This document shows, piece after piece, positions 11,735-39,750 of a stretch of DNA of 64,000 nt; the stretch's first letter is position 1; each line of letters opens with the position of its first letter. The notes beneath the pieces were generated by a model. That model had not been told where the DNA came from, searched no databases, and was given only the letters and a program-made list of their open reading frames with translations. This stretch comes from Bacteroidia bacterium (lineage in GTDB: Bacteria > Bacteroidota > Bacteroidia > Flavobacteriales > Flavobacteriaceae), in NCBI GenBank assembly GCA_030427865.1, contig JAUICK010000006.1, positions 62,001 through 126,000 of the forward strand. The letters run 5' to 3'. The position numbers and the translations under genes were made by a program.

Positions 11735-11852
11735 AATAAATAAATTTTACACTTATTTTTAATAGGTAAATAATTTCATTTAAAAAAAACATTTTAAATG
11801 CATCTTTTTTAATAACTTTAAGTCTATTCTATGAAAGTTAAAATCAATAAAA

Positions 11853-11960
11853 ATGAAAAATTATAAAAATCAATGCTCTTGTAGTTGTGTAGAATGTATT
11901 AATGGCGATTGCAAAAATTGCACTTGCGAAAGTTGTACATGTTCAAATTGTAATTGTTAA
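11853..11960 (+). CDS. Metallothionein-like cysteine-rich peptide
   Basis: A 35-residue peptide with 11 cysteines, at positions 8, 10, 12, 15, 20, 23, 25, 28, 30, 33 and 35, mostly as CxC and CxxC pairs (for example CKNCTCESCTC). No aromatic residue follows Tyr4. This is the composition of a metallothionein, a cytosolic chelator of soft metals such as zinc, copper or cadmium, but I cannot assign it to a named family. It has no signal peptide. The gene lies in the divergent region opposite gbsR and upstream of an isoprenylcysteine-methyltransferase-like gene and sigZ, which itself encodes a cysteine-rich tail. It is too short for standard gene finding and is probably missed in annotations. Confidence 0.72.
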   Translation: MKNYKNQCSCSCVECINGDCKNCTCESCTCSNCNC

Positions 11961-11969
11961 CTAAATTAT

Positions 11970-12035
11970 GTCATTTCGAAATAGAAGAACCATTAAGAAA
12001 TTTTATTATTTAAACTCCTCTACATTCGAAATGAC
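11970..12035. repeat. Dispersed palindromic repeat, complete unit
   Basis: Perfect 11-base terminal inverted repeats GTCATTTCGAA (11970-11980) and TTCGAAATGAC (12025-12035) flank 44 bases. It is the same family as the copies in icmF and at 39724. It lies between the metallothionein-like gene and the methyltransferase-like gene. Confidence 0.7.
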
Positions 12036-12055
12036 TTTTAAAAATAAAAGAATAA

Positions 12056-12661
12056 ATGGAAAATATAATTAAAATTGGACTACCATTTTTTTTTATTACA
12101 TATTTCAGTATTGTATTTCTATTAAAAACCATAATAATTGGTAAAAAGATAGGTAAAAGTCCACTTGTTTTATCTACAAAAGATAAAACAGCTTATACCA
12201 TTATTGGTAATTATTTTAAATACACAATCATAAGTGTTTTTCTATATGTTTTAACTTTTTCGATATTTCCTAACGTTAATGATTGTTTTTTACCCATAGA
12301 AATTTTAGAAATTAAAAGTTTAAAATTAATTGGGTTAAGCTTATTAATTCTTTCATTTATTTGGACAATTATTGCTCAAAATAATATGAAAAACTCTTGG
12401 CGAATAGGCATAGATTCTGAAATGAAAACAAAATTAGTAAAAAAGGGATTATTTAAAATTTCAAGAAACCCTATTTTTTTAGGATTAATTACAAGTCTAA
12501 TCGGTTTGTTTTTAATAACACCAAATGCTGTAACTCTATTCTTTTTAATTTTGAGTTTTATGTTGATACAAATTCAAATTAGATTAGAAGAAGAATTTTT
12601 AATAGAACAACACGGAATTTGTTATCAAGAGTACAAACAAAAAACTAATCGATTTATTTAA
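12056..12661 (+). CDS. Isoprenylcysteine carboxyl methyltransferase family membrane protein
   Basis: A 201-residue integral membrane protein with about five hydrophobic segments. The C-terminal half carries the family signature: LVKKGLFKISRNPIFLGLIT, then RLEEEFLIEQHGICYQEYKQ, which bind SAM and the substrate in ICMT and PEMT-like enzymes. Bacterial members methylate small lipophilic or thiol substrates that are mostly unknown. The stop is followed after one base by the ATG of sigZ, so the two genes are co-transcribed and probably share a role in thiol or membrane stress (inference). Confidence 0.82.
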   Translation: MENIIKIGLPFFFITYFSIVFLLKTIIIGKKIGKSPLVLSTKDKTAYTIIGNYFKYTIISVFLYVLTFSIFPNVNDCFLPIEILEIKSLKLIGLSLLILSFIWTIIAQNNMKNSWRIGIDSEMKTKLVKKGLFKISRNPIFLGLITSLIGLFLITPNAVTLFFLILSFMLIQIQIRLEEEFLIEQHGICYQEYKQKTNRFI

Positions 12662-12662
12662 A

Positions 12663-13202
12663 ATGACAACAAAACAAGTTTGGACAAAATATTCTGAAGA
12701 CTTAAAGCGATTTATCATTAGCAAAGTAAAAAACACAGCTATTGCTGATGATATTTTACAGAATACATTTATTAAAATCCATACAAACCTTCACACATTA
12801 AAAGACATTAAAAAACTAAAATCTTGGTGTTTTACGGTGGCAAGAAATTCGATTTTAGATTACTGGAAATCAACAAATAAAACCTTTGAAATTGCCAATT
12901 TTGAAAGCGAATCAACTATCGTAGAAAATATACATACAGAAAAAGATTGCTTAAGAGGCATCTTAAAGAACTTGCCAAAAAAGTACAGAGATCCTTTGTT
13001 TTTATCAGATATAAAAGGATTAAAACAGCAAGAAGTTGCCAATCAGCTCAAACAAAGTTTACCTACTACAAAATCTCAAATTCAACGCGCAAGAAAACTT
13101 ATTGCGCAAGGTTTTATAGATTGCTGTGGTTTTGTTATGAATGATAACGGAAATTTAGTTGGTGAAATTCAAGAAAAAAAAGATTGCAAAGTTTGCAATT
13201 AA
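12663..13202 (+). CDS. sigZ: SigZ-type RNA polymerase sigma factor
   Basis: An ECF-like sigma-70 factor of 179 residues. Region 2 is KVKNTAIADDILQNTFIKIH with KSWCFTVARNSILDYW. Region 4 is LPKKYRDPLFLSDIKGLKQQ followed by EVANQLKQSLPTTKSQIQRA. The C-terminal tail is typical of SigZ: IDCCGFVMNDNGNLVGEIQE, then KKDCKVCN, with four cysteines that could sense metals or thiol oxidation. No anti-sigma gene is adjacent, so the tail may do the sensing itself (inference). The cysteine-rich peptide gene and the methyltransferase-like gene precede it on the same strand. Confidence 0.87.
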   Translation: MTTKQVWTKYSEDLKRFIISKVKNTAIADDILQNTFIKIHTNLHTLKDIKKLKSWCFTVARNSILDYWKSTNKTFEIANFESESTIVENIHTEKDCLRGILKNLPKKYRDPLFLSDIKGLKQQEVANQLKQSLPTTKSQIQRARKLIAQGFIDCCGFVMNDNGNLVGEIQEKKDCKVCN

Positions 13203-14155: not shown

Positions 14156-14335
14156 ATGAGTGTACTAAAACACTTAAAACTCAAAATAAATTTTAAAAAA
14201 GTAAACTGTCCAAAATGTAAAGAAGAACAGCCTAAAATAAGAACGCCTAAAGGTTGGAGTGAGATTTTTTGGGGTGGAAATACTTGCAAAAACTGCGGTT
14301 GTAAAATGGATAGATTTGGTAATGAAAAAGGATAA
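14156..14335 (+). CDS. Small zinc-ribbon protein
   Basis: A 59-residue protein from the ATG at 14156 to the TAA at 14333-14335. It has two cysteine knuckles, CPKC (18-21) and CKNCGC (44-49), framing a basic and aromatic core (TPKGWSEIFWGG), which fits a zinc ribbon. It begins 2 bases after the stop of the dienelactone hydrolase gene and overlaps the start of the methyltransferase gene by 14 bases, so these three genes are probably co-transcribed. I know no function for it. Confidence 0.7.
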   Translation: MSVLKHLKLKINFKKVNCPKCKEEQPKIRTPKGWSEIFWGGNTCKNCGCKMDRFGNEKG

Positions 14336-39723: not shown

Positions 39724-39750
39724 GAGATTTCTCCTAACGTCGAAATGACA
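39724..39750. repeat. Dispersed palindromic repeat, partial unit
   Basis: The stretch contains GAGATTTCTCC followed by CGTCGAAATGACA, one half of the repeat family seen in icmF and at 11970. It lies in the ccoH-ccoG spacer. Confidence 0.55.

Follow-up and report, generated by a model that had tools for sequence, protein, structure and literature searches.

What is a 35-amino acid peptide with 11 cysteines doing upstream of a sigma factor gene whose product ends in a cysteine-rich tail of its own? The question is raised by a 64,000-nucleotide stretch of DNA from a marine member of the Flavobacteriaceae, which we refer to in full as "the window". Three ORFs follow one another on its plus strand: a metallothionein-like peptide ORF (11853–11960), a gene for a membrane protein of the PEMT/ICMT superfamily (12056–12661; 201 aa), and a gene for a SigZ-like ECF sigma factor (12663–13202; 179 aa). 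A sequence-only reading had pointed out these ORFs, including the cysteine tail of the sigma factor, and had taken them together as a putative regulon for thiol or metal stress. All three ORFs are indeed present on one strand; the promoter, hairpin, DUF3703 gene, and exporter regulon described here go beyond that reading.

We consider it very likely that the peptide, the SigZ-like factor, and their promoter constitute one conserved module, and we put at roughly 0.75 the probability that SigZ, the peptide, and metal pumps form an autoregulated soft-metal stress circuit. The argument draws on what sequence comparison demonstrates: the coding status of the peptide ORF, synteny, the promoter, its genus-wide target set, the hairpin, and the conserved cysteines.

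A conserved cysteine-rich peptide next to sigZ

The peptide translation, MKNYKNQCSCSCVECINGDCKNCTCESCTCSNCNC, has the cysteine pattern CxCxCxxCx4CxxCxCxxCxCxxCxC. A first search found the peptide in 31 of 201 family-level genomes and SigZ in 49; two genomes overlooked in that search (G175 and G058) also contain the peptide. Where a family-level genome has a close SigZ, the peptide ORF in most cases lies directly upstream of the sigma gene on the same strand, and it adjoins sigZ in each of the 30 loci inspected in the genus. The CxC-rich ORF that the earlier reading expected beside sigZ elsewhere was, in other words, sought in relatives and found. Peptides of relatives are 33–35 aa long with 11 cysteines. 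Ten of the 11 cysteine columns do not vary at all and the last hardly varies; the other columns are mostly N, T, S, E, K, or G, with few conserved non-cysteine residues (e.g., Gly). Pooled over 63 distinct 11-cysteine sequences, pN/pS is 0.28, and TGT and TGC codons both occur in every cysteine column. Conservation and pN/pS rule out a chance ORF, and these comparisons identify the peptide as a real, conserved coding gene.

The peptide has the sequence attributes of the metallothionein functional class, being small, with ~30% cysteine, CxC and CxxC motifs, and no aromatic core, and it presumably binds metal. None of 28 peptide members matched any metallothionein Pfam family, including PF02069 (SmtA/BmtA type), at E ≤ 1. 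The peptide falls outside all Pfam and NCBIfam families, and homology to solved metallothioneins was rejected, with no PDB sequence match. Nor is the peptide described in the literature searched (most subscription journals lay outside its coverage), in keeping with the suggestion of the earlier reading that it is probably undescribed. Because there is no Pfam match, we do not file the peptide as an SmtA-type metallothionein. Eight more distant SigZ genes are accompanied by a peptide of 37–41 aa belonging to a branch with 14 invariant cysteines; an alignment of the 11- and 14-cysteine branches spans 14 columns, and the two may be homologous.

Two further small ORFs were observed in passing. One relative of the peptide (L030, genome G053, 1498–1596) has no SigZ promoter and lies upstream of what appear by eye to be a carbonic anhydrase gene and a SulP-type transporter gene. 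Within the window, an unannotated 59-aa ORF at 14156–14332 has two CxxC pairs (CPKC and CKNC) and is zinc-ribbon-like, with no family match.

A SigZ-like sigma factor with invariant cysteines

The sigma factor qualifies as an ECF factor by its matches to PF04542 (43.8 bits), PF08281 (41.3 bits), and TIGR02937 (68.3 bits against a cut-off of 42.9). The best scores, spanning nearly the full length, are to the SigZ families (TIGR02959/PRK09637). The nearest named SigZ, from Polaribacter marinus, is 86% identical, which makes a Polaribacter-type host probable. We use the name "SigZ-like" because SigZ is by far the best family, yet the scores are below both curated cut-offs (157.7 versus 168.65 bits for TIGR02959; 170 versus 212 bits for NF007215); for the same reason, we do not file the protein as SigZ sensu stricto. 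For brevity, we refer to it as SigZ. An AlphaFold model shows an ECF fold (pLDDT 83, pTM 0.45), and a Foldseek search with this model matched the solved ECF sigma factors SigH, SigE, SigW, and CnrH.

The last 26 residues of SigZ hold four cysteines in the arrangement C154-C155-X19-C175-X2-C178 (13122–13196), a candidate metal sensor; Cys tails occur in other SigZ homologues too. A fifth cysteine, Cys96 (codon at 12948–12950), lies in the linker between sigma2 and sigma4. In an alignment of 28 sequences, C96, C154, C155, and C175 are invariant and C178 is conserved in at least 90%; the AlphaFold model, with its pTM of 0.45, does not fix the relative placement of tail and linker cysteines. No anti-sigma-like gene recurs among the neighboring ORFs of sigZ. 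By analogy with known metal-sensing sigma factors, SigZ probably senses metal directly through its own cysteines. The earlier suggestion that the sigma factor is itself a sensor of metals or oxidized thiols thus divides: the conserved tail, comparable to those of known metal-sensing sigma factors, favors metals, and oxidized thiols have no specific support.

In one genome, a broken second copy of the C-terminal half of SigZ (G204:C22:9298–9579) lies ~1 kb past the intact gene, a remnant of a tandem duplication.

A promoter that accompanies SigZ

Aligned upstream regions share a conserved ECF-type promoter, TGCATCTTTTT-N12-GTCTA. At this locus, the site lies at 11799–11826 on the plus strand (−35 element TGCATCTTTTTT, −10 element GTCTA), ~54 bp upstream of the peptide ATG, and reads exactly TGCATCTTTT-N13-GTCTA. 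The distance from motif start to peptide ATG is 53–55 bp in 61 of the 72 loci in which a site was found. The −10 element is similar to GTCTAA, the sigma-E element of E. coli, as would be anticipated of an ECF factor.

A scan of 99 genus genomes found 85 exact occurrences of the motif in 63 genomes, against a single occurrence for a reversed-pattern control. Of the 70 genomes that have a close SigZ, 63 contain the exact motif; none of the remaining 29 does. Since the pattern was derived from loci spread across the family, with this genome and G132 the only genus members among them, the scan is largely independent. Where the peptide occurs without a close SigZ, the motif is absent or decayed (L006, L008, L027, and L030; decayed at L016). 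Within the window alone, the count of motifs with three mismatches is not above chance. A chance motif was rejected, given the reversed-pattern control and the absence from genomes without a close SigZ. Because of this strict co-occurrence, we infer that SigZ uses the TGCATCTTTTT-N12-GTCTA promoter.

In two genomes, peptide and sigma gene have decayed together. Stop codons interrupt the sigma gene of G190, whose peptide ORF is also broken; in G089, which gave no close sigZ match, the promoter is weakened and cysteine codons of the peptide have turned into Tyr or Phe codons. A separate tie to zinc comes from G137, which has no SigZ match and whose peptide lies just beyond a CDF exporter gene, on the same contig and strand.

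A hairpin between the peptide and the sigma gene

Downstream of the peptide stop codon is a hairpin (11970–12035, plus strand; MFE −15.5 kcal/mol, z −3.6), formed here by inverted GTCATTTCGA arms. When 65-nt windows were folded and compared with shuffles, a stable hairpin followed the peptide stop in 69% of 62 loci, as opposed to 5% in the stretch immediately preceding the promoter and 3% in the next gene. Its position is conserved, and the stem sequences differ among relatives. A simple stem-plus-T-run terminator scan was positive in 55 of 71 cases versus a mean of 41.7 in shuffles; since this is not clearly above shuffles, an intrinsic terminator was rejected as the sole reading, and we claim only the hairpin itself. 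The hairpin probably acts as an attenuator or 3′ stabilizer, which would yield more peptide than sigma factor. The GTCATTTCGA repeat occurs three times in the window (including 11970–12035 and 39740–39749), with a chance probability of 0.11, and related GTCATTTCG sequences occur in the same peptide–sigZ gap of some relatives (e.g., L144).

This layout bears on whether the peptide might be a regulator rather than a metal sponge. In such a scheme, the apo-peptide would bind SigZ or remove its metal and in this way serve as a small anti-sigma factor. The peptide is an obligate neighbor of sigZ, the two decay together, and the neighborhood has no anti-sigma gene, all of which would fit. However, the promoter and hairpin favor high peptide and low sigma output, G137 keeps the peptide beside a CDF gene without a SigZ match, and the few conserved non-cysteine residues are unlike a protein-binding surface. 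We regard a regulatory peptide as improbable, although regulation and metal buffering are not mutually exclusive.

The membrane protein gene is an insertion

The middle ORF of the locus (12056–12661) encodes a protein that exceeds the Pfam cut-offs for both PEMT (PF04191; 43.1 bits against 25) and ICMT (PF04140; 33.9 bits against 24). These matches are at superfamily level only, and the protein falls well short of the isoprenylcysteine methyltransferase equivalog NF040696 (46.6 against 160 bits). It is also weakly similar to the methanethiol S-methyltransferase MddA. Its presence in the operon here and its weak MddA similarity would suit a functional trio of peptide, ICMT-like enzyme, and SigZ, in which the enzyme methylates thiols or metals. 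The relatives speak against this: by tblastn, none of 30 genus loci examined has an ICMT-like homologue between peptide and sigZ, and the promoter-to-sigZ gap of 129–298 bp in 62 genus genomes, compared with 836 bp here, leaves no room for one. The ICMT-like gene is best described as an insertion between hairpin and sigZ, found in this genome only among those compared. The enzyme therefore drops out of the module that the sequence-only reading had drawn, and we rejected the three-gene trio as scarcely credible.

Metal exporters among the promoter sites

The 85 promoter sites comprise 63 at the peptide–sigZ operon, 10 second copies located 516–620 bp before sigZ, and 12 elsewhere. Where examined, this second copy lies in front of a DUF3703 gene (PF12487, 127 bits), a family not mentioned in the literature searched. 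In part of the genus, this gene, with its own SigZ-type promoter, is directly upstream of the peptide (e.g., L224, 925–1278).

Nine of the 12 off-operon sites lie 42–82 bp before exporter genes, encoding CDF proteins (seven), a P-type ATPase (one), and a CzcA/CusA RND pump (one). The CDF sites precede a ZitB-like exporter gene in seven genomes, including this one (G000 C39:222140); the seven CDF genes are mutually related and therefore do not represent seven independent events. The ATPase exceeds the cut-offs for heavy-metal TIGR01525 and the cadmium subfamily TIGR01512, and the CusA/CzcA pump exceeds that for TIGR00914. The remaining three sites lie before a TonB-receptor-like gene beside a His-rich protein gene, before a flavin monooxygenase-like gene (both named from the sequences by eye, not by family matches), and within a gene. 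In another genus, a site precedes a different CDF gene (G084). The CDF site in this genome overlaps an inverted repeat that supplies the GTCTA. G258, which has SigZ, has this CDF but no site; G285 and G227 have a site with one or two mismatches; and SigZ-less G253 has no site. A comparison of CDF sites between genomes with and without SigZ was underpowered, as only four of 31 genomes had the CDF. Only a minority of SigZ genomes have exporter targets; in the majority, the sole exact match is the operon site.

Because the promoter is shared and its targets are metal exporters, we regard the module as a metal regulon. This retains much of the regulon in the earlier reading, in that the peptide is coupled to the sigma factor, and leaves the ICMT-like enzyme outside. 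The module is likely to serve soft-metal stress, with Zn and Cd, as suggested by the exporter families, the most likely metals.

Two other stresses were weighed against these targets. First, SigZ and the peptide might answer mainly to arsenite or organoarsenicals, with tail and peptide binding As(III) and the efflux genes being side targets. A CC pair and a CxxC are good As(III) ligands, and other SigZ branches lie beside arsM, arsI/cadI, arsP, and DUF2703 genes with a related promoter. Within the genus, by contrast, the promoter precedes CDF, P-type ATPase, and CzcA/CusA exporter genes, no arsenic gene occurs at the sites examined, and the peptide is beside a CDF gene in G137, making a mainly arsenic-related role unlikely. 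Second, SigZ might be a sensor of oxidized thiols (disulfides or electrophiles), with tail cysteines forming disulfides and the peptide acting as a thiol buffer. Redox chemistry would suit four tail cysteines and a peptide rich in cysteine, but the off-operon targets are metal exporters, and the genus promoter sites examined include no thioredoxin, reductase, or peroxidase gene; we consider this very improbable.

Proposed mechanism and known systems

In the soft-metal circuit that we favor, SigZ, having no anti-sigma partner in its conserved neighborhood, would read Zn(II) or Cd(II) (most likely) through C96 and the CC...CxxC tail. Active SigZ would then transcribe from TGCATCTTTTT-N12-GTCTA promoters. 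The first target would be its own operon, giving abundant peptide and, past the hairpin, less SigZ, along with the inserted ICMT-like enzyme in this genome. The second would be the DUF3703 gene just upstream of the operon in many relatives. The third would be exporter genes at separate loci: the ZitB-like CDF here, and a CDF, heavy-metal P-type ATPase, or CzcA/CusA RND gene in others. The peptide would sequester metal and the pumps would remove it; as free metal falls, SigZ would be switched off.

The closest parallels are CorE and CorE2 of Myxococcus xanthus (ECF44, now ECF238), ECF factors without an anti-sigma factor that sense metal through a C-terminal Cys-rich tail and have metal efflux targets (PMC8999054, PMC9023288, PMC3107203); sensing by the SigZ-like factor is, for its part, a candidate property. 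In CorE2, which responds to Cd and Zn, the tail begins with CC and the second cysteine sets specificity (PMC9023288, PMC8999054). SigZ likewise has a Cys-rich C-terminal domain and no adjacent anti-sigma gene. Its linker, however, has the single invariant Cys96 in place of the CXC of CorE, and because the CXC is missing, we do not file SigZ as a CorE. The tails also differ (CC-X19-C-X2-C in SigZ; CC-X3-C-X2-C-X-C in CorE2), as do the promoter and the sequence family, and the SigZ operon includes a metallothionein-like peptide. By analogy, the module may work like CorE2 plus a metallothionein. OrbS of Burkholderia cenocepacia similarly combines an on-board Cys metal sensor with the lack of an anti-sigma factor (PMC9023288), where the SigZ sensor is a candidate, but OrbS is inhibited by Fe(II) and controls a siderophore system. 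In smtA-smtB, a metallothionein gene is co-located with that of a metal-responsive regulator (PMC7387436); there, the regulator is a divergent ArsR-type repressor, whereas here it is a sigma factor, i.e., an activator. Unlike SmtA, the peptide is 33–35 aa long, with CxC/CxxC motifs only and no Pfam match. The peptide would represent a family of metallothionein-like proteins that routine annotation misses because of their small size, conserved in the genus and controlled by a sigma factor instead of a repressor. Taken together, promoter, regulon, and conserved cysteines suggest a testable function for SigZ.

Distant SigZ homologues

In Bacteroidota, Ktedonobacter, Syntrophomonadaceae, and proteobacterial MAGs, distant SigZ homologues come with a related motif, TGCRTCYTTTT-N-CGTCT, which commonly lies in the gap separating sigZ from the following gene; most of these homologues have Cys tails. 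Their neighbors include genes for the arsenite methyltransferase ArsM (three tested, all over the NF008823 cut-off), ArsI/CadI (two tested, both over the NF041414 cut-off), an ArsP_1 permease, DUF2703 proteins, and assorted Cys-rich peptides. Given these arsenic-type neighbors, one metal cannot simply be assumed for the whole SigZ family. The ArsM-linked branch is likely arsenic-responsive.

We think there is a good chance that SigZ-like factors in several phyla form an anti-sigma-free class that senses soft metals or metalloids by its own cysteines, with the TGCRTCYTTTT-N-CGTCT promoter in common and detoxification cargo particular to each branch. Such cargo would be arsenic methylation and lyase genes in some branches, and Zn/Cd efflux together with an undescribed metallothionein family in Flavobacteriaceae. 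If so, SigZ would gain a function, and there would be metallothioneins directly under a sigma factor. One promoter grammar with varied metal(loid) cargo would allow regulon prediction from sequence in Bacteroidota and some other phyla. Neither a function of SigZ nor anything of this kind is described in the literature searched (again with most subscription journals outside coverage), and no SigZ regulon is known to us.

Several loci are worth recording individually. At eight loci from several phyla (L129, L137, L156, L157, L161, L166, L296, and L297), a distant SigZ gene is followed by an ArsM-like methyltransferase gene, mostly with TGCRTCYTTTT..CGTCT between them. One SigZ branch, which lacks the usual CC tail, precedes a PhzF-family gene (L132–L135, L319, and L323), off the metal theme. 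Finally, in Kordia/Flagellimonas-type loci (L170, L171, and L173), a variant motif, TGCATCATT...CGTCTTA, precedes genes for small CC-rich proteins and conserved genes, with three copies at L171.
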